DNA of 64,000 bases, from positions 1 to 64,000 of the forward strand of contig JAJAPY010000015.1 of NCBI GenBank assembly GCA_020523885.1, in the 5' to 3' direction. This DNA comes from Candidatus Liberimonas magnetica (lineage in GTDB: Bacteria > Elusimicrobiota > Endomicrobiia > Endomicrobiales > JAFGIL01). Shown one piece after another: positions 1 to 8,762 of this stretch. How positions within the stretch are numbered: the stretch's first letter is position 1; every line of letters starts with the position of its first letter. The notes under the pieces were generated by a model that was not told the origin of the DNA, searched no databases, and was given only the letters and a program-made list of their open reading frames with translations. The position numbers and the translations under genes were made by a program.

Positions 1-60
1 CAAATGCTGACAAGGTGTTGTTGCCTTTGACGTTGCGACTTTGACTTTAAGAAAGTTGCA

Positions 61-1170
61 TTGGGGTCAGGGCTAAACTATTGACAAAATCACACGGACC
101 GACGGTTAAGCAATTACTCACAAATTGCCTTATATACATTTTCTACTCTTTTCCCCAAATCTCTATTATTTCTTATTTCTTCCTGAAACCTCTCGTGTAC
201 CCTAGATATTCCGGCTCCAGTCATTCCCCCAAATTCTCTGCCCAAATCTCTTAATGTCTTATGTTCCAGGCAGAGCCTATAACTTAGTTCTATCAACACT
301 TTTCTTGCCTCTCTCTGTCGTGAACGCAGCTCAATTAATTCTTCAGGTTTTATGCCATACTCGCGCGCCACTTTTAAAATTATTTCCCTGATTGTATACT
401 GCCTCACTTCTCTTACATTTGTTGTATAAGACTTTAAATCCTTCCCTTTGATATATTTGTCCTTTATTCTCTTTATAAAATCCTCAGATCCAAGTAAAAA
501 CTGGCTGCGCAGCTTATCCATAGGATTGCCTGCTCCGTTTACCACACCTTCCTTCACATATTCTTCATATTTCTTCCGTCCGGTTTCTGTATCACCGCCA
601 GTATGTTCCAGTACTTTCTCACATCTGAAATATTTTGACCTCTTTTCAGGATATAAAACACTTAAATAACTGCTCCATTTGTAATTTCTTAATATTAGCT
701 CCTGTTCAACTTTGCTCTTTTTCAATGAGGACTTAACCTTAACCGGGTTTAAATATATATACCTGCTAAGCGATAGAAAATATTCATCAGAACCCACCAG
801 TATTGCCTTATACCTTCCCTGCATCAGCGGGCCAACGCGCTTATATTTAAAATTAAAATATCTTGTATATGCGGTATTAAGCCGCTGCATAAACCTGCTT
901 AAATTTGACTTTGGCGTGCACAATAAAAAGTGGAAGTGATTCGGCATCAGACAATATGCTATAATTTCCGCTTTATAAAAATCCGCGCCTTCTTTCAGTA
1001 ATTGAACAAAGTGCTCTCTGTCTTTATCATCACTGAATATTTCCCGGCGATCTATTCCACGGCTTGTTATATGGTATATTGCTCCTTCATATTCTATTCT
1101 TAGTGGCCTTGCCATGTTTTTACATTATCATTTGACTTATATTTTGTCAATAGTTTAGCCCTGACCCCAA
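61..1170 (-). mobile_element. RAYT-type element with perfect 30-bp inverted ends
   Basis: Positions 61-90 and 1141-1170 are exact reverse complements over 30 bases; the match stops at both edges. They enclose one gene, the Y1/HUH transposase at 114-1115, leaving 23 and 25 bases inside the repeats. Classical IS200/IS605 elements have subterminal hairpins rather than long terminal inverted repeats. RAYT transposases act on paired inverted REP sequences, so these ends may be a REP-like pair. No target-site duplication is evident, as expected for HUH enzymes. That this is a complete unit is an inference from the exact ends. Confidence 0.8.
114..1115 (-). CDS. REP-associated tyrosine transposase (Y1/HUH family)
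   Basis: A 333-residue protein. The N-terminal ~150 residues are a Y1_Tnp domain that nicks single-stranded DNA. The HUH-like motif MPNHFHFLL (His60 and His62) binds the metal, and the probable nucleophile is Tyr119 in SRYIYLNPVK. The opening MARPLRIEYEGAIYHITSRG is typical of RAYT proteins. The C-terminal third contains a helix-turn-helix region (about 270-320) resembling the DnaA C-terminal domain, as seen in long RAYT proteins. The frame is intact and the gene lies alone inside perfect inverted repeats, so it may be active. Confidence 0.9.
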   Translation of the reverse strand: MARPLRIEYEGAIYHITSRGIDRREIFSDDKDREHFVQLLKEGADFYKAEIIAYCLMPNHFHFLLCTPKSNLSRFMQRLNTAYTRYFNFKYKRVGPLMQGRYKAILVGSDEYFLSLSRYIYLNPVKVKSSLKKSKVEQELILRNYKWSSYLSVLYPEKRSKYFRCEKVLEHTGGDTETGRKKYEEYVKEGVVNGAGNPMDKLRSQFLLGSEDFIKRIKDKYIKGKDLKSYTTNVREVRQYTIREIILKVAREYGIKPEELIELRSRQREARKVLIELSYRLCLEHKTLRDLGREFGGMTGAGISRVHERFQEEIRNNRDLGKRVENVYKAICE

Positions 1171-1186
1171 TTACTTGCGATAATTT

Positions 1187-3196
1187 CTACTTTCGTTTGC
1201 GGTGTGTTATACGCCAATGCGGCGGCATTTGCGGCTTTTGTGCAAGGGACAGGTCTATTTTTCCATCAATCGTATCAACAGCGTCTATTATCACCTTAAC
1301 CTTTGTACCTGGCGCAAGATTGGTAATACGAAGCATTCCCTCTGCGCCAGTATTTCCGCAGAGGACAAATGAACCGGTGTCTATAATTGTCGTAACAGTC
1401 CCGTCCATTACTTCACCGATATGTCCCTTGAACAGTTCAGCCCTCATAATGTCAACTGCCTTGTGCTCAGCATCTGCTGCAGCTCGTTCTCGCTCGGAGC
1501 AGTGCTCGCCCGCCTCGGCAAGAGAAACCCCTTTCGCGCCTTGCTGGATCCCGCCATGGCGGGATGTCACGTTATCAAATGAGCCTTCGGCTCCTACATA
1601 AGGGGTTCCACCTGAAAGAAGCGCTTTAACAGCCCTGTGTGCCATAAGATCTGGATACCTGCGGATGGGTGATGTAAAATGGGCATAGGCTATGGCTGCG
1701 ATGCCAAAATGCCCTTTTGATTCCGGTGCGTAAACAGCCTGCTGCATACTGCGCACCATAAGTGAATTAATTATATATGTCAAAGGGTGAGCTTCGGCCT
1801 GACGCAAAACATCCTGTAATGCTTTATGTATATTCCCGCCAAGGACGTGTCCTGCTGAAAGCCCCAAATCACCAAGAGCCTTTGACAGAGCTTTTATTTT
1901 AGCAGGGTCCGGGTCGTCATGTCTGCGGTGCAAAAAGGGTATTTTTGCTGCCATAAGCTCTGTCGCGACCGATTCATTGGCAAGCAGCATGAATTCTTCT
2001 ATAAGCCGGTGGCTCTTTAGCCTTGGACGGAGTGCCACACGCAGCGGTTTGCCCTTAGCGTCCATCTCAACCTTATACTCCGGTATATTGAAATCTAAAG
2101 CGCCGCGTTTGATTCTTGTATCGTATAACACATCGGCAAGACATCCCATGCGTAACACCGCCTGTGCAGCGGCAGCGGGTACATCATAGAGTTTTCCACC
2201 GTCAAGAAGCACCTGAACTTCATCATAAGTGAACCTACGGCAGGAACGAATTACAGTATTTGCCAATCTGCGTTTCGTAACTTTTCCTTCAGGATCTATA
2301 TCCATGAACATTGACACAGTAAGACGCTCCCGGTTAGGCACAAGGCTGCAAAGATTATTTGAAAGAGACAGCGGGAGCATAGGCACTACACGGTCGGGCA
2401 GGTAAACGCTTGTCCCTCGAAGGTACGCCTCTTTATCAACAGCTGAGCCTGTCTTAACATAATGTGCCACATCTGCTATATGCACACCAAGACATACCAT
2501 CCCGTCGCTAAGTGGTTCAATAGAGATCGCGTCATCAAAATCCTTCGCGTCAGCTCCGTCAATTGTCACTATCGGAAGATGGAATAGCTCTTCTCTTCCA
2601 TGCCAGGCAGGTGGTTCTAATCTATCAGGCAATGCGCCACTTTGTGCGAGAACTTCTTTCGGGAAATATTCACTGATACCGCTCTCCCGTAATAACGATG
2701 TAATACGAGCCCGTAAATCGTCCGGTTCGCCAAGCACCTCGGTTACTGTTCCGGCAGCACCTTCCCTGTCCGTAGGCCATCGGGTAACTTCAAGAACAGC
2801 AAAGGCCCCTGCTATAGGCGTTATTCTATGTGCAAAAGACAGAACCTGTGCCGGCGAAGCATTTCCTTTCTCCGGGAATACCCCCCAGCCGTGTGGAAAT
2901 TTTTTAAGAATACCAACAATAGAAGTATGTGCACGCTTCAGCACTTTTATTATCTCACCGGACAACCGGCCGTCATACTCGCGGCGCACACGCGCCAAAA
3001 CGCGGTCACCGTCCATTGCCAGGCCAAGCCCGCGGCCGCACAAAAACACGTCCTGCCCGCCTTCTGTTTCAGTAAGCAGGAACGCAAACCTACCGTGATG
3101 CTGTATAACGCCTTCCCGGGTTTCTTCCTTTTTCCCAGCCCCGTGGTGCCTATGGTCACCTTGATGCCTATTACGCCTTTTCCAATGTTGTTTCAT
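1187..3196 (-). CDS. rnr: Ribonuclease R (RNB-family exoribonuclease)
   Basis: Processive 3'-5' exoribonuclease. Order: a basic, His-rich N-terminus, cold-shock/OB domains, an RNB catalytic domain with acidic motif DGADAKDFDDAISIE, and a C-terminal S1 domain (about 610-660). The open frame begins at a TTG at 3214, but the ATG at 3196 (MKQHWKRR) is the likelier start. At about 669 residues it is slightly short for RNase R. Between the HRAVKALLSG segment and GEHCSERERAA the protein carries an extra stretch; its 22-residue core is encoded by a dispersed palindromic repeat (1546-1611). GC content is clearly higher than in most neighbours. The assignment is firm; the effect of the insertion is unknown. 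Confidence 0.93.
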   Translation of the reverse strand: MKQHWKRRNRHQGDHRHHGAGKKEETREGVIQHHGRFAFLLTETEGGQDVFLCGRGLGLAMDGDRVLARVRREYDGRLSGEIIKVLKRAHTSIVGILKKFPHGWGVFPEKGNASPAQVLSFAHRITPIAGAFAVLEVTRWPTDREGAAGTVTEVLGEPDDLRARITSLLRESGISEYFPKEVLAQSGALPDRLEPPAWHGREELFHLPIVTIDGADAKDFDDAISIEPLSDGMVCLGVHIADVAHYVKTGSAVDKEAYLRGTSVYLPDRVVPMLPLSLSNNLCSLVPNRERLTVSMFMDIDPEGKVTKRRLANTVIRSCRRFTYDEVQVLLDGGKLYDVPAAAAQAVLRMGCLADVLYDTRIKRGALDFNIPEYKVEMDAKGKPLRVALRPRLKSHRLIEEFMLLANESVATELMAAKIPFLHRRHDDPDPAKIKALSKALGDLGLSAGHVLGGNIHKALQDVLRQAEAHPLTYIINSLMVRSMQQAVYAPESKGHFGIAAIAYAHFTSPIRRYPDLMAHRAVKALLSGGTPYVGAEGSFDNVTSRHGGIQQGAKGVSLAEAGEHCSERERAAADAEHKAVDIMRAELFKGHIGEVMDGTVTTIIDTGSFVLCGNTGAEGMLRITNLAPGTKVKVIIDAVDTIDGKIDLSLAQKPQMPPHWRITHRKRK
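1546..1611 (-). repeat. Family A palindromic repeat, in frame inside rnr (copy A1)
   Basis: Read on the minus strand this runs from GTGGAACCCC through AGGAGCCGAAGGCTC and GATAACGTGACATCCCGC to GGCGGGAT. The same framework occurs at 5416, 18430, 32876, 36326 and, inverted, at 58371-58465. Here it is 66 bases, exactly 22 codons, and stays open in the rnr frame. It contains the self-complementary segments GAGCCGAAGGCTC and ATCCCGCCATGGCGGGAT. Confidence 0.8.
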
Positions 3197-3258
3197 ACTA
3201 ATAAATTTTCTCAATATATAGGATATTTGTCAAGTCAGACAGCTTCGCTGCTAACTTC

Positions 3259-3755: not shown

Positions 3756-4017
3756 AATACGCTCCTCCTTGCTAATTTTTTTTACGCCCTTGCATTGCGT
3801 CATAAACCTGCGCTTTATCGATGCGGCCTCCTTGTTAAACTCAGTGATCTCTTCAAGTGCGGATTAAATCTTTTTAACGGTTTAATGTTGTTCGGAACCC
3901 TAAAAATTGTTGCTTTTTATTTCTCTTGGTTTGTGGATTTTTAGATGTGCGGTGATTTTGTGGTTAGGCTAAAAAGAAAGCTTAACTATCCCTTTGAAAT
4001 CAAGATTTACTTAATTT

Positions 4018-4046
4018 ATTGTATCTTATTATCAACAATATATCAA
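4018..4046 (-). promoter_or_regulatory. Sigma70-type promoter for the RRM gene, long leader
   Basis: On the minus strand: TTGATA, a 17-base spacer, then TACAAT. Transcription would start near 4011, giving a leader of about 255 bases before the ATG at 3755. The spacer 3756-4087 shows no other gene. A long 5' leader on an RRM or cold-shock gene often folds into a temperature-dependent structure; that role here is an inference. Confidence 0.55.
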
Positions 4047-4087
4047 GGCCACGAGTTGCCTCAATAAATATCGATCCAAACAATATT

Positions 4088-4774
4088 TTAAGAAAACCAA
4101 TAATAATCACAGGCAATATGGCCTATAATAAGCGGCCATAGATTTTTTAGTCTCAGATATGCCATTGCGAAGAATACTCCTACCATCAGCCCTTCGAACA
4201 GGTTCCATATTCCGCCTTCCCAATGCGCGGCAGAAAATATTATTGAAGATGTTAATACATATAATAATTTATTTTTAGAGCTGTTATTGAACAGCAGCCT
4301 GAACATACCGCGGAAATATATTTCTTCAACAAATCCTGCTGATAGGCAAAAATGCAGTAATACTATTATGCTTAATATTCCTGTTTTGGGCATAACGCCT
4401 TTATAATCAAATTGAAGCATACCATAATTGTTAAGTATCTTCTTGATAGAATAGTAGGATGAGACATCTATGACAATGCCTAAAAACGTCACAACTAAAA
4501 TACTGACAAAAAAAAGATAACTATTTTTTTTATCAAAAACTTCAGAGTGAAATCCCAGATCTTTAAAACCGAACACCTTGTTTTTTACACCGAATGTAAG
4601 TATAGATAACGGAAGAAGGATCCAGGTCAAAACTTCAACCAACCAGTAAAAGGCAGGGAATCGAGAAATATACCAATTATAAAATCCATTTATTTCTAAA
4701 GGCAATATGCCAATAATAAACAGAATAATGAGAGTATTTTTTTTGTTATTCATGTAATGTGACACTATGTGCAA
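4088..4774 (-). CDS. CPBP-family intramembrane metalloprotease
   Basis: A 228-residue polytopic membrane protein with the three CPBP/Abi motifs: EEIYFRG (the EExxxR motif), FSAAH with its histidine, and GHIACD near the C-terminus. These supply the glutamates and histidines of the intramembrane active site. Family members process prenylated or signal-bearing proteins, or act in bacteriocin immunity; the substrate here is unknown. The frame begins at a TTG at 4774 preceded by AGGGAAACGGA; an ATG at 4753 is the alternative. The zinc-ribbon gene ends nine bases upstream, so the two probably share a transcript. Confidence 0.85.
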   Translation of the reverse strand: MHIVSHYMNNKKNTLIILFIIGILPLEINGFYNWYISRFPAFYWLVEVLTWILLPLSILTFGVKNKVFGFKDLGFHSEVFDKKNSYLFFVSILVVTFLGIVIDVSSYYSIKKILNNYGMLQFDYKGVMPKTGILSIIVLLHFCLSAGFVEEIYFRGMFRLLFNNSSKNKLLYVLTSSIIFSAAHWEGGIWNLFEGLMVGVFFAMAYLRLKNLWPLIIGHIACDYYWFS

Positions 4775-4783
4775 TCCGTTTCC

Positions 4784-5011
4784 CTATCTGCTAAACAACC
4801 TGTCAAGTATATGAGTTTTTAGCATAATTATCATCGAAGCCACAAGAATCAAAATTATAAGTATCCTATTGACTGAGTTAACACGCCGCATATGCGGTGT
4901 GTAATCATCTTCATATTGGGATATCTTACGGATCTCCTTCCCGCAAACAATGCAGAACAATCTTTCCTTTATATTAGTCCTTCCGCAATGAGCGCATCTT
5001 GTCTCATACAT
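4784..5011 (-). CDS. Small zinc-ribbon membrane protein
   Basis: A 75-residue protein. Residues 6-9 (CAHC) and 20-23 (CIVC) form a two-knuckle zinc ribbon; about 25 polar residues follow, then one transmembrane helix at about 48-64 and a basic tail. The topology suggests a cytosolic zinc ribbon anchored by its C-terminus. It lies between a response regulator (8 bases away) and the CPBP protease (9 bases away), which suggests co-transcription. I do not recognise a specific function. Confidence 0.75.
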   Translation of the reverse strand: MYETRCAHCGRTNIKERLFCIVCGKEIRKISQYEDDYTPHMRRVNSVNRILIILILVASMIIMLKTHILDRLFSR

Positions 5012-5019
5012 TTAAAACT

Positions 5020-5394
5020 CTAAGCTTTTATTTTACAAAAATTATCTTCGACTTTTCTTAAAACTCTTTCTACTATAAAAGGCTTGGTTATATACCCGTT
5101 TATGCCAAATTTATCGGCCCTATCGATATCCCCGATCATATTTCTTTCGGTACACATTATCACAGGCAATTCTTTTGTCTTAGCAGAGCTTCTTAAACAT
5201 TCCAGAACCTGCCACCCGTCCATATGAGGCATGTTTATATCAAGCATTACAAGGTCAGGCTTAAAATATTTTATTTTATCAAGGCACTCTGTACCGTTAT
5301 GAGCTATTTCTGTCTTGTATCCCTGTCCTTTTAGAATATGCTGCAAAAGCGCACAAACATCTCTTTCATCATCTACTACTAAAACTTTCTTCAT
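5020..5394 (-). CDS. Single-domain response regulator (CheY-like)
   Basis: A 124-residue receiver domain with no output domain. Acidic pair at residues 8-9 (VDDE), phosphoacceptor Asp52 in VMLDINMP, conserved Thr in MCTE and Lys in YITKPF. It starts about 110 bases downstream of the sensor kinase gene (5504-7228), its likely partner. A family A repeat and a hairpin lie between them. Output must be through protein-protein contact. Confidence 0.92.
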   Translation of the reverse strand: MKKVLVVDDERDVCALLQHILKGQGYKTEIAHNGTECLDKIKYFKPDLVMLDINMPHMDGWQVLECLRSSAKTKELPVIMCTERNMIGDIDRADKFGINGYITKPFIVERVLRKVEDNFCKIKA

Positions 5395-5508: not shown

Positions 5509-7228
5509 TGGGGCTGGGCAAAGACAATATGAATGAGCTCCCTTTGCCGGGCTCGCTTTCAACTCTTATCTTGCCGTTATGCGCCTCTACCGCCATTTTA
5601 CAGAATGTCAGCCCCAGGCCCGCACCCGTACGCAGGTGCACCCTTTTTCTTTCAATCTGAACAAATTTTTCAAATATTTTATCCTTATATTCTTCCGGAA
5701 TGCCGGAACCGTTATCAGTTACGCTTATTTCCACAAATTTATCCAGATTCTTTAAGCCCAAAACTATTTTACCTTCCTTTAATGTGTGGTGCAGTGCGTT
5801 TGAAATAAGGTTATTTAAGACCCTCTCTATCAGAGCTCCGTCAATTTCAATGACAGGGATATCTTTTCCGATGTCCGCAGATATAGTTTTGTTCTCGCTT
5901 TTCACCAATGGTTCGAATTGGTTAAAGCGCTCAAGAAGTATCTTTGCTATATCGAATTTTTCTTTTCTCAATTCAAGTTTTCCCTCTTCCATCTTTGCTA
6001 TGTCCAATAAATTTTGGATCATGATAAGGAGGTTTTGCCCGGATTTATTCGATATCTCAACTATTCTTTTCTGTTCGGGGGTAAGTTCGCCCAAAAGCCC
6101 GGACCCTAAGTAATCAAGACCTCCCATTATACCGCTAAGCGGGCTTTTTAGGTCATGTATTATCATGCTGATAAGGTCCTGCCGTAATTCCTCCAACTCT
6201 TTTAGGGAAAGTGCCATTTTTTCAAAGCTGCCTGCAAGCTCTTGTATTTCATCGCCTGTTTTAATGTCAAGTTTAATATCAAGTTTACCCTGGCTGATCT
6301 TACCCGCCTCTGATTTAAGAAGTTCAAGCGGGTCTATGATACGTTTAACAAATCTGTACCCAACCACTAAGAATATACTGGTCCAGACAAAAGTCCAGAA
6401 TAAAATACTCTGATACATTCTCTTGACGGGCAGGTATACTTCTCTAGCGGGTATCTGTATTATAACAGCCCAGCCGAACTTTGCCAGCGGCCTGTATAAA
6501 GAAACAACCGTTTCGCCTTTCTCATCCTTATATTCAGGCCAGTTTTCGCTGTTGATCTGTTTATAACTTATGAAATCCTTAACAATCGGCAAATTACTGA
6601 AATCGCTGTGCATCCAAACGCGTTCCGGATCCCTATGGGCTATAAGGTTCCCTTTAAGGTCAACCACAAAAGCCTGGCCGGTCTGGCCAACTTTTATTTC
6701 TTTTATCCACTGCCACATTTTTTCAAGGTCAAGTTTTGCCGTAAGAACGGAAGAGGCAGGCGATAAAGGGATCGAAAGTATAAGGTAGGGGCTTCTTTGG
6801 CCTGAAATATAGACCGGGCTGATATATTCAAAACCCTTGTATGCCTCAAGAAATTCAGGTTTAGTAGTACGCTTTGCCAGGTTTTTTACCGGGCCTGAAC
6901 GGGTAAGCTTCCATTGTTCCCTTGCATTCTTATCAAGCAGGGCTATTTCAGTAAAATCCTCGCTTTGAGCAAAAATCTCTTTTGCCGTCAAGAGCTGCTC
7001 GGCCTTCGGCATACGCCCGATATTTTTGTGAACGAAAAGGAGCTGCTGGTTATGGTTTATCTGAGAAGTTAAACGGTCTGAAAGCCTGTTAAGAGTCTCC
7101 TCCTGTTGATAAAATATGGAGTTCTTCAAGGCCTTTTTACTTATAGAGGTCAGTATGATGCTTAAAAGAAGAGCAGGCAGGACTATGGCAAGTATAAATA
7201 AAAAAATTATTTTATATCTTAAGGACAT
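5504..7228 (-). CDS. Sensor histidine kinase with Cache-type periplasmic domain
   Basis: A 574-residue kinase counted from the ATG at 7228; the longer frame from 7252 begins with TTG. Order, numbered on the longer frame: first TM at 12-35, a ~240-residue periplasmic region with Cache-like segments (FVVDLKGNLIAH, GWAVIIQIPAREVY), second TM at 283-300, HAMP at 300-352, HisKA with phosphoacceptor His366 in IIHDLKSPLSG, and HATPase_c with N box (NLISNALHH), DNGSGIP and GAGLGL. Cache domains usually sense small metabolites. The adjacent CheY-like protein is the probable partner. Confidence 0.92.
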   Translation of the reverse strand: MSLRYKIIFLFILAIVLPALLLSIILTSISKKALKNSIFYQQEETLNRLSDRLTSQINHNQQLLFVHKNIGRMPKAEQLLTAKEIFAQSEDFTEIALLDKNAREQWKLTRSGPVKNLAKRTTKPEFLEAYKGFEYISPVYISGQRSPYLILSIPLSPASSVLTAKLDLEKMWQWIKEIKVGQTGQAFVVDLKGNLIAHRDPERVWMHSDFSNLPIVKDFISYKQINSENWPEYKDEKGETVVSLYRPLAKFGWAVIIQIPAREVYLPVKRMYQSILFWTFVWTSIFLVVGYRFVKRIIDPLELLKSEAGKISQGKLDIKLDIKTGDEIQELAGSFEKMALSLKELEELRQDLISMIIHDLKSPLSGIMGGLDYLGSGLLGELTPEQKRIVEISNKSGQNLLIMIQNLLDIAKMEEGKLELRKEKFDIAKILLERFNQFEPLVKSENKTISADIGKDIPVIEIDGALIERVLNNLISNALHHTLKEGKIVLGLKNLDKFVEISVTDNGSGIPEEYKDKIFEKFVQIERKRVHLRTGAGLGLTFCKMAVEAHNGKIRVESEPGKGSSFILSLPSPT

Positions 7229-7251
7229 ATTTCTTAAATCCCAACAGAACA

Positions 7252-7350
7252 AGACAAATCCAAACCGAATAATAAATACTTATTTTGTTATATACTTATT
7301 TGTCATATATATTTTTCTTTTATTTGGATTTATTCGGTTAGTCATTTTGT
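7252..7350. repeat. Word-repeat inverted pair between kinase and citrate-synthase-like gene
   Basis: The left arm has CAAATCCAAACCGAATAATAA. The right arm has the complement, written on this strand as TTTGGATTTATTCGG. The centre is almost pure A/T. This is the same architecture as the other word-repeat spacers, with its own vocabulary. Confidence 0.55.
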
Positions 7351-7376
7351 TGTTTATTTGGGATTCATTTTGTTTG

Positions 7377-8762
7377 TCATTTACTGTTCTTCTTCGGGCT
7401 GTGTTCCGGCAGATATTTTTTCACAAGTTCCCACATTTCATCGTCTGAAATAACGTTTACTCTTCCTTTTTCGAATTCGCTGTCTATCCATTCTTTCATT
7501 TTAGCTATTGCAGGCAGTGATTTATCTATTTTTTTATCACCGGAAAGTTCAAGCTCATTATTTATCCAGTAAGCAATGCCCGCAAGGCCTGATTTGTCGG
7601 TCAAGCTGACCTCCGGAGGCCTGTTAAGGATTTTCCCTGTATTAAAAACATTGTAAATTTCTTCATCTTTAAGAAGGCCGTCCACGTGTATGCCTGCCCT
7701 CGTCAGGTTAAAGTGAGCTCCAACAAAGGGCTGCTGCAGCGGTATATTATAGCCTATCTTATTCTTAAAATACTTGGCTATATCTGTAATGACCGACAGG
7801 TCCATTCCATTCCAGGTTCCCCGTAAAGATACATATTCTATTGCAAGAGCTTCTAAAGGCGTATTCCCTGTCCGCTCACCTATGCCTAGTAAAGTTCCGT
7901 TTACTGCACTACACCCGTACAGCCATGCAAAAGTAGCATTTGTTAAACCCCTGTAAAAATCATTATGCCCGTGCCATTCTATCCACTCTGACGGAACTCC
8001 GGCCAGATGGGTCAGCCCGTACATGATCCCGTTCACATTGCGGGGTAAGGATGCTCCTGCATAAGCTACCCCAAAACCAAGAGTATCGCACGCCCTGATC
8101 TTAACCGGCATTTTTGCTTCCTTTGCAAGCTTCATCAGCTCGCTTGCAAAAGGCACAACAAATCCGTAAAAATCAGCTCTTGTTATATCCTCAAAATGGC
8201 ACCTTGGTATTATGCCTTCTGCCAAAGCAGCGCGGACAATATCCAGATACATATCCAATGCCTGCCTGCGGGTTTTTTTAAGCTTCAGAAAGATATGATA
8301 ATCAGAGCAGGAGGTAAGAATACCTGTTTCTTTAAGTCCCATTTCTTTTACAAGATGAAAATCATTTTTAGTTGCTCTTATCCAGGATGTTATTTCAGGG
8401 TATTTGTACCCCTTTTCCCTGCATTTGGCTAAAGCATTCTTATCTTTTTCAGAATATAGAAAGAATTCCGTTTGCCTTATGACCCCGTTTGGCCCACCGA
8501 GCTTGTGTAACATATCATAGATAGCAACCATTTGTTCTACGGTAAAAGGAGGAAGCGCCTGCTGACCGTCTCTGAAAGTCGTGTCTGTAATCCATATTTC
8601 TTCCGGAGGATTCATAGGTACTACCCTGTTATTAAACGGGATTTTAGGGATATCATCGTAAGGGAACACATCCCTGTATAAGTTAGGTTCGGTTACATCT
8701 TGCAATTCATAATGGTATTCTTCAGGTTCTAGTATTTTCCTATCTTTATTGAAACGAAGCAT
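7377..8762 (-). CDS. Probable Re-type citrate synthase (homocitrate/isopropylmalate synthase family)
   Basis: A 461-residue enzyme of the DRE-TIM (HMGL-like) superfamily that condenses acetyl-CoA with a 2-oxo acid. The core motif is DTTFRDGQQALPPFT; CHFEDITRADFYGF and WHGHNDF supply further active-site and metal-ligand residues. The blocks LGGPNGVIRQTEFFLYSEKD and GYKYPEITSWIRA resemble, from memory, the Re-citrate synthase group of clostridia, Syntrophus and similar anaerobes more than LeuA, whose C-terminal regulatory domain is absent. Start ATG preceded by GGAGG. No leuCD or other leucine genes are nearby. The superfamily is certain; the substrate is an inference. Confidence 0.65.
   Translation of the reverse strand: MLRFNKDRKILEPEEYHYELQDVTEPNLYRDVFPYDDIPKIPFNNRVVPMNPPEEIWITDTTFRDGQQALPPFTVEQMVAIYDMLHKLGGPNGVIRQTEFFLYSEKDKNALAKCREKGYKYPEITSWIRATKNDFHLVKEMGLKETGILTSCSDYHIFLKLKKTRRQALDMYLDIVRAALAEGIIPRCHFEDITRADFYGFVVPFASELMKLAKEAKMPVKIRACDTLGFGVAYAGASLPRNVNGIMYGLTHLAGVPSEWIEWHGHNDFYRGLTNATFAWLYGCSAVNGTLLGIGERTGNTPLEALAIEYVSLRGTWNGMDLSVITDIAKYFKNKIGYNIPLQQPFVGAHFNLTRAGIHVDGLLKDEEIYNVFNTGKILNRPPEVSLTDKSGLAGIAYWINNELELSGDKKIDKSLPAIAKMKEWIDSEFEKGRVNVISDDEMWELVKKYLPEHSPKKNSK

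Follow-up and report, generated by a model that had tools for sequence, protein, structure and literature searches.

Does a RAYT gene that is enclosed by perfect inverted repeats belong to a unit that moves as a whole, or is it a resident gene whose ends serve the host? RAYTs are usually described as stable and housekeeping-like, moving REPs but not themselves. The question is raised by the beginning of the window, i.e. the 64,000-nucleotide stretch of Candidatus Liberimonas magnetica DNA analysed here, for which an earlier note had described a RAYT gene with sharply bounded, perfect 30-bp inverted ends and without the usual subterminal hairpins, and had taken it to be a probably recent or selected copy and perhaps a mobile, self-contained unit. 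We consider it likely that the window carries an insertion element, intact and of the TIRYT type, with a protein that recognises its own ends and moves the 1.1-kb unit.

The window carries a RAYT-like gene between identical 31-bp ends

The two arms of the terminal inverted repeat (TIR) lie at positions 60 to 90 (plus strand, on the 3' side of the gene, with the outer core GGGGTCAGG and the inner motif TTGACA) and at 1141 to 1171 (minus strand, on the 5' side of the gene, identical to the first arm). They are complementary at 31 of 31 positions across 1050 intervening nucleotides, and the identity stops sharply at both edges of both arms. Perfect ends with sharp boundaries are therefore real, with the correction that the repeat is 31 bp rather than 30 bp long, extending one base further at each outer side. 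When a 24-base part of the repeat is searched with up to three mismatches, it matches the window at these two ends only (mean of 0.00 matches in 100 shuffles), and both arms contain GGGGTCAG, which fits the motif GGGGWSAS. Both the arms and a comparison with relatives, whose homology is lost at the arms or within a few bases of them, place the probable limits of the whole TIR-bounded element (TIRtron) at positions 60 and 1171 (1112 bp, no strand assigned).

The TIRYT transposase gene between the arms (114 to 1115, minus strand) is a single, intact open frame of 333 aa, encoding an HUH/Y1 domain and a C-terminal DnaA-domain-IV-like domain. On the right, outside the element, a gene of the RNase R/II type (RNB domain) occupies positions 1187 to 3214 on the minus strand. 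On the left, the window starts where its contig (C15) starts, leaving just 59 bases next to the element, and the flank at positions 1 to 55 (plus strand) is identical, over exactly 55 shared bases, to positions 135975 to 136029 of contig C5 of the same genome (G000), at the inner end of an IS3-type element. This match at the contig start perhaps marks an assembly fork at k=55. In the draft genome (3,394,123 bases, 29 contigs), the element is present as one intact copy.

A probable Y1 nuclease with a DnaA-type C-terminal domain

The Y1_Tnp profile scores 57.8 bits on the window protein (cut-off 23). Its HUH/Y1 domain (about residues 12 to 120) has an intact HUH motif (H60-F-H62) and tyrosine (Tyr119), in line with the RAYT-like Y1 gene described earlier, and H60, H62 and Tyr119 are invariant across an alignment of 36 sequences. 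The DnaA-domain-IV-like region (about residues 240 to 333) scores below threshold with Bac_DnaA_C (21.6 bits; cut-off 31.5), as does the single window protein with the NCBIfam model REP_Tyr_transpos (68.6 bits; cut-off 80). At an E-value of 0.01, Y1_Tnp is found in 36 of the 36 aligned proteins and Bac_DnaA_C in 15. As a lone query in a sequence search against solved structures, the window protein gave no match; the alignment profile retrieved six DnaA sequences, matching the last third, and, as the only transposase, the E. coli TnpAREP (4er8), matching the Y1 part. A predicted model of the window protein (pLDDT 89.0, pTM 0.78) had 4er8 as its top match in a structure search, matched DnaA domain IV (1j1v) with a TM score of 0.90 by target length, and has a Y1 fold common to the IS608 and ISDra2 transposases. 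Because the profile matches (DnaA and 4er8) and the predicted fold agree, the window protein appears to be a fusion of a Y1 nuclease with a DnaA-type reader of duplex DNA; the C-terminal HTH extension of the DnaA_C type, although sub-threshold in Pfam, is backed by profile and fold.

Matched ends are the rule in the family

Relatives were drawn from 99 genomes near the window's, none of the same genus, of which 23 had matches (the window's own included), and from further loci in titled genome records of many phyla (80 loci, the best 80 of 568 confirmed), viral records (12) and plasmid records (four). Flanks of at least 150 bp on both sides were available for 163 of the 184 distinct proteins; the window element lies outside this set because its left flank is shorter. 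Matched inverted ends at the chosen threshold bracket 128 of the 163 elements, a set whose titled-genome part is the best 80 of 568, and the other 35 are without ends at this threshold. When flanks were exchanged between elements, 8 of 488 pairs matched, and the outer flanks of the same elements matched in 0 of 149 cases. By source, matched ends were found in 5/6 elements of the window's own genome, 55/64 of relatives, 4/5 from plasmids, 8/10 from viral records and 56/78 from titled genomes (from the best 80 of 568 confirmed). A Pseudomonas aeruginosa plasmid record with three copies was discounted, since it looks like a duplicated cassette locus.

Arm identity averages 96.8%, and the arms are perfect in 65 of the 128 matched-end elements. 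Thus, an element of this family normally has matched ends, often perfect ones, which reveal little of its age, and to conclude from the perfect ends that the window copy is recent or selected was wrong. The window's genome has eight Y1_Tnp genes; six of these loci have an inverted pair at threshold, with ends that differ from locus to locus, and by eye the ends of L005, in the same genome, are related but imperfect. The nearest paralogue of the window protein in this genome is 45% identical.

Two loci deserve mention in their own right. In L074, two TIRYT units (3927 to 5092 and 6801 to 7967) lie 1.7 kb apart on one contig; their proteins are 75% identical, and each unit has its own version of the end, matched on both sides. 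In L110 (2514 to 4025), the Y1 frame is continuous with upstream sequence that looks by eye like an RHS repeat gene, and the element may sit inside this RHS-like gene.

Ends agree within an element but diverge between elements

With further loci, the set of elements with ends was enlarged to 159. The 71 elements anchored on GGGTCA have the consensus GGGGTCAGGTCTTGA.TTTTGACATT, which then stops; outside it there is a slight A/T preference alone, and the flank logos are nearly uninformative from about -4 outwards on both sides. A second core class, GGGGACG, comprises 43 elements. The core type tracks the protein tree, with 23 changes compared to a shuffled mean of 77.3 and 0 of 200 shuffles as low, on a quick tree in which 54 of 156 inner branches are weakly supported and some branches are long.

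Further inside (+12 to +24), the arms form an inner block with an agreement of 0.777 within an element versus 0.401 between elements with proteins 50-59% identical (GGGTCA class) and 0.812 versus 0.437 at the same protein identity (GGGACG class), a comparison that uses elements preselected for matched ends and for which the 128 of 163 against swapped flanks is the selection-free control. At a protein identity of at least 70%, the agreement between elements rises to 0.744 (6 pairs) and 0.854 (15 pairs). An element's two ends stay alike while ends differ between elements.

Exact TTGACA is over-represented in the inner block, in 6 of 26 long-protein elements (0.2 expected) and 4 of 45 short-protein elements (0.4 expected). 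A DnaA box (TTWTNCACA, up to one mismatch) was also considered as a component of the inner block and is not supported by the counts against shuffle expectation (1/26 long-protein elements with 0.5 expected; 3/45 short-protein elements with 1.0 expected). Scores for -35/-10 elements, which bear on a possible promoter role of TTGACA, are nearly equal at the two ends (means 7.55 and 7.14). Among eight GGGACG-class elements printed (L006, L029, L046, L047, L050, L189, L007 and L034), TATTGACA occurs at or just inside the inner edge of the arm at the 5' end of the gene in six and at the 3' end in none, and could possibly be a -35 box on the gene side only.

Extra copies of an element's own core were noticed outside the ends (6 to 106 bp; 114 elements of both classes) and are commoner near than far (GGGTCA, 1.9 per kb near and 0.44 far; GGGACG, 1.51 and 0.30), with densities of 0.63 and 0.12 per kb for the motif of the other class near the ends; 14 of the 71 GGGTCA and 11 of the 43 GGGACG elements contribute them, and nested ends may inflate the counts. 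L266 and L268 have nested double ends, with an outer and an inner TIR copy on one side of the gene that differ as GACGTTC/GACGCTC. A base change that seemed concerted when L266 and L267 were compared was dropped, as it reflects the choice between nested double ends. In elements of the GTGCCG[CT] type (L249 and L269-L275, genome G258), GAAT[TC]G precedes five of seven ends, and the two ends without it are the 5' (upstream) ends of two full copies. This one-sided flank preference is reminiscent of the target of IS200/IS605 elements, which is one-sided.

TIR-bounded units insert as whole pieces in relatives

Empty sites and comparisons of copies, which the earlier note had proposed as checks, both gave positive results among relatives. 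One element of the window's core class (GGGGTCAGG; L251), with perfect 29-bp ends, lies between genes with ABC_tran and MlaD domains, which we take to be mlaF and mlaD. Among the 31 other genomes of the genus, 11 align with its joined flanks without interruption. A further 15 have both flanks on one contig: the seven with the widest gaps between the flanks yielded no Y1 frame, and the gap is under 300 bases in the other eight. In the remaining genomes, the flanks are on different contigs (three), give weak matches only (one) or give none (one). An element of the sister GGGGACG class (L039; protein of about 250 aa) lies between genes of the Pyr_redox and GCV_T types, and its joined flanks form one stretch in 3/3 other genomes of its genus, with gain and loss at this site and that of L251 separable by parsimony only. 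L042 lies inside the last codons of a gene, presumably lpxB; the gene tail is conserved in the seven relatives printed, and the element is absent from this position in the one other genome of the genus.

On contig G258:C15, an element is present twice, 7.9 kb apart and in one orientation; over 1143 bases, the two copies differ at a single position, which lies in an arm. On one side they cease to resemble each other at the arm, on the other about six bases outside it, and no similarity was found between their flanks, compared over 490-500 bp. Likewise, three sister-species pairs (L259/L265, L236/L252 and L254/L255) are similar over the element only. Together, these sequence comparisons indicate that the TIR-bounded units of the family insert as whole pieces. 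The proposal of a mobile, self-contained unit thus stands for the family, on the basis of empty sites and near-identical copies; for the window copy itself, whose repeat occurs only here, whose nearest paralogue in the genome is 45% identical and whose left flank is cut by the contig end, movement is presumed from the relatives.

Separately, four gene-less mini-elements of 127 bp (L276-L283) lie within 6 kb of each other at G258:C9:18759-24590, each consisting of two inverted ends resembling those of the local TIRYT. In 4/4, the immediate flanks are GATGG on one side and a CGCATT-like motif (reverse complement AATGCG) on the other, while the farther flanks differ. In genus g58 (L302-L308), the gap between the mlaF- and mlaD-like genes measures tens of bases in some species and over 2 kb in others, and the seven gaps examined contain no Y1 frame.

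A single copy and scattered ends in the window's genome

Could the window instead hold a domesticated single-copy RAYT with a role for the host, its ends being kept for self-regulation or for scattered ends and the unit being immobile? That RAYTs behave like housekeeping genes is a published view, stated in the part of Quentin 2018 (PMC6006769) on this point, which cites Bertels 2017, and it favors this explanation. So does the single copy: a 28-base part of the TIR, searched with up to three mismatches across the 3,394,123-base genome, occurs nowhere beyond the two window arms, which is the first half of what the earlier note had named as speaking against its own reading. TIRYT-type genes are rare on mobile carriers, with hardly any spread on plasmids (14 of 72,556 records) or phages (1 of 50,697 records) and 12 loci in one scan of viral contigs. 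In L266 and L267 (genus g58), the flanks are common to both species, and some elements are therefore inherited vertically, in place. Finally, the end pattern of a sister element on contig C6 occurs at 11 places in the window's genome, three at that element and eight as scattered solo ends on eight other contigs, compared to 0 matches for the reversed pattern. Against domestication stand the whole-unit insertion in relatives and the fact that the ends stay matched though the flanks outside carry little common sequence. On balance, we regard domestication as unlikely.

The solo C6-type ends lie on contigs C2, C3, C4, C5, C8, C11, C18 and C19 (G000; L309, L312-L316 and L318). In 7 of 10 printed C6-type copies, counting the three on C6, [AT]CTT is present at -6 to -3 outside the core; it is absent at the eight ends of four sister-genus elements.

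Folding of the ends and a model for transposition

A further alternative, which we judge improbable, is that the ends are two independent subterminal hairpins as in IS608 and that their long inverted identity is incidental. The Y1 fold shared with the IS608 and ISDra2 transposases would fit this explanation, and the arm of L042 self-folds strongly (-8.1 kcal/mol, z -5.24, GGGGACG in the loop); other solutions therefore exist within the family. By contrast, folding no better than that of shuffles was obtained for the window arms taken singly (-1.0 and -0.6 kcal/mol; z -0.70 and -0.84), for the 100 terminal bases of each strand (z -0.74 to +0.40) and for the arms of L039, L024 and L008 (z -0.62, -0.08 and 0.78). 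Moreover, no inverted pair with arms of at least 8 bases within 60 bases is present at the window ends (1 to 180 and 1050 to 1300), and the matching runs through the inner block (0.777 within versus 0.401 between elements). The absence of a subterminal hairpin from these ends, as proposed earlier, is thereby confirmed. Because arms and terminal 100 bases fold no better than shuffles, the only strong partner of an arm at the ends is the other arm. By eye, the arms of L042, L037, L038, L039 and L196 (proteins of about 250 aa) resemble a short stem around GGGGACG, with stem letters that differ among them.

We give almost no credence to the chance capture of a Y1 gene between two solo repeats of an unrelated family, because, although solo ends of a sister element exist in this genome, the window's repeat is found nowhere else and the family-wide pattern of matched ends (128/163) contradicts it.

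For the insertion element that we favor, we suggest the following model. A single-tyrosine HUH nuclease with a DnaA-domain-IV-like reader of duplex DNA would be made from the element's gene and would recognise its own pair of ends by the class-wide outer core GGGGTCAGG and the element-specific inner block. It would then cut and rejoin the DNA at the ends, and the 1.1-kb unit would be carried to new sites. We infer that the window protein acts on the window ends and that this copy is still active; by analogy with its Y1 relatives, the protein would work on single-stranded DNA. With one copy in the genome, the element appears to move rarely.

A possible, tentative extension, which we hold to be more doubtful than probable, is that both ends form one structure, in which the complementary arms, on exposed single-stranded DNA, would snap back and pair as a 31-bp stem that has the gene as its loop. 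The stem's inner block would be read by the DnaA-type domain and its foot cut by the HUH domain, and selection on pairing, rather than on sequence alone, would keep the ends alike as they drift between elements. That the DnaA-like domain reads the same duplex sequence at both ends is about as likely as snapping back, or somewhat more so. If true, a snap-back stem would give Y1 enzymes another means of delimiting their element, besides the double hairpin of IS608.

Discussion

TIRYTs/TIRtrons are a known but little-studied type of bacterial jumping gene. What the present comparison adds is evidence, at the level of the family, that units insert and that the two ends evolve in a matched way. The comparisons indicate that the TIR-bounded branch of RAYTs still moves as whole units, and this branch may therefore be a bridge between IS200/IS605 elements and domesticated RAYTs. 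Ends that remain matched and yet change also raise the question of whether the arms pair or the same sequence is read twice.

To our knowledge, IS200/IS605 elements do not have long inverted ends. They (e.g. IS608 and ISDra2) share the HUH/Y1 fold with the window element and, according to Quentin 2018 (PMC6006769), recognise subterminal secondary structures, whereas the window ends are non-folding and without a subterminal hairpin, and the window protein has an extra DnaA-like domain. In the case of REPtrons, the E. coli TnpAREP (4er8) is the best structural match of the window model, and the scattered ends of the C6 sister family resemble a repeat family, as in REPtrons and REPINs. However, no palindrome with arms of at least 8 bases within 60 bases that could stand for the GTAG-tagged REPs of REPtrons lies beside the window gene (1 to 180 and 1050 to 1300), and the arms pair with each other, not internally.

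A literature search for Y1 transposases with inverted repeats and DnaA returned Quentin 2018 only. Its description of TnpAREP subclass 2.1 (RAYT group 1), which according to the same text (PMC6006769) is probably equivalent to TIRYTs, agrees with the window in the long protein, in the DnaA_C/HTH-type C-terminal extension and in that no REP is found near the gene. By these features, set beside the published description rather than the sequences of the subclass, the window protein fits subclass 2.1. In the part of Quentin 2018 that deals with class 2 TnpAREP, there is no evidence of mobility for this class, whereas relatives of the window element show unit insertion.

In the literature searched, the term TIRYT is used in Di Nocera 2013 and Quentin 2018 only. 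No report of empty sites of TIRYT units was found in the parts of these two papers covered: the text of Di Nocera 2013 (PMC3733652) on TIRYTs describes neither empty sites nor movement of units, and its main text uses neither "empty site" nor "target site" as a term. In that text, RAYTs with long TIRs are named TIRYTs (TIRYT/TIRtron), many but not all members have the motif GGGGWSAS near the ends of their repeats, and in some genomes the TIRs are dispersed as solo, dimeric and grouped ends. By this description, a TIRtron has a RAYT-like Y1 gene inside long inverted repeats unrelated to REPs, and the window has such a gene with intact HUH motif and tyrosine, REP-unrelated long inverted repeats and a GGGGWSAS match; it differs in that its ends are not a repeat family in their own genome. 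Overall, the window element fits a new member of the known TIRYT/TIRtron type rather than a new kind of element.
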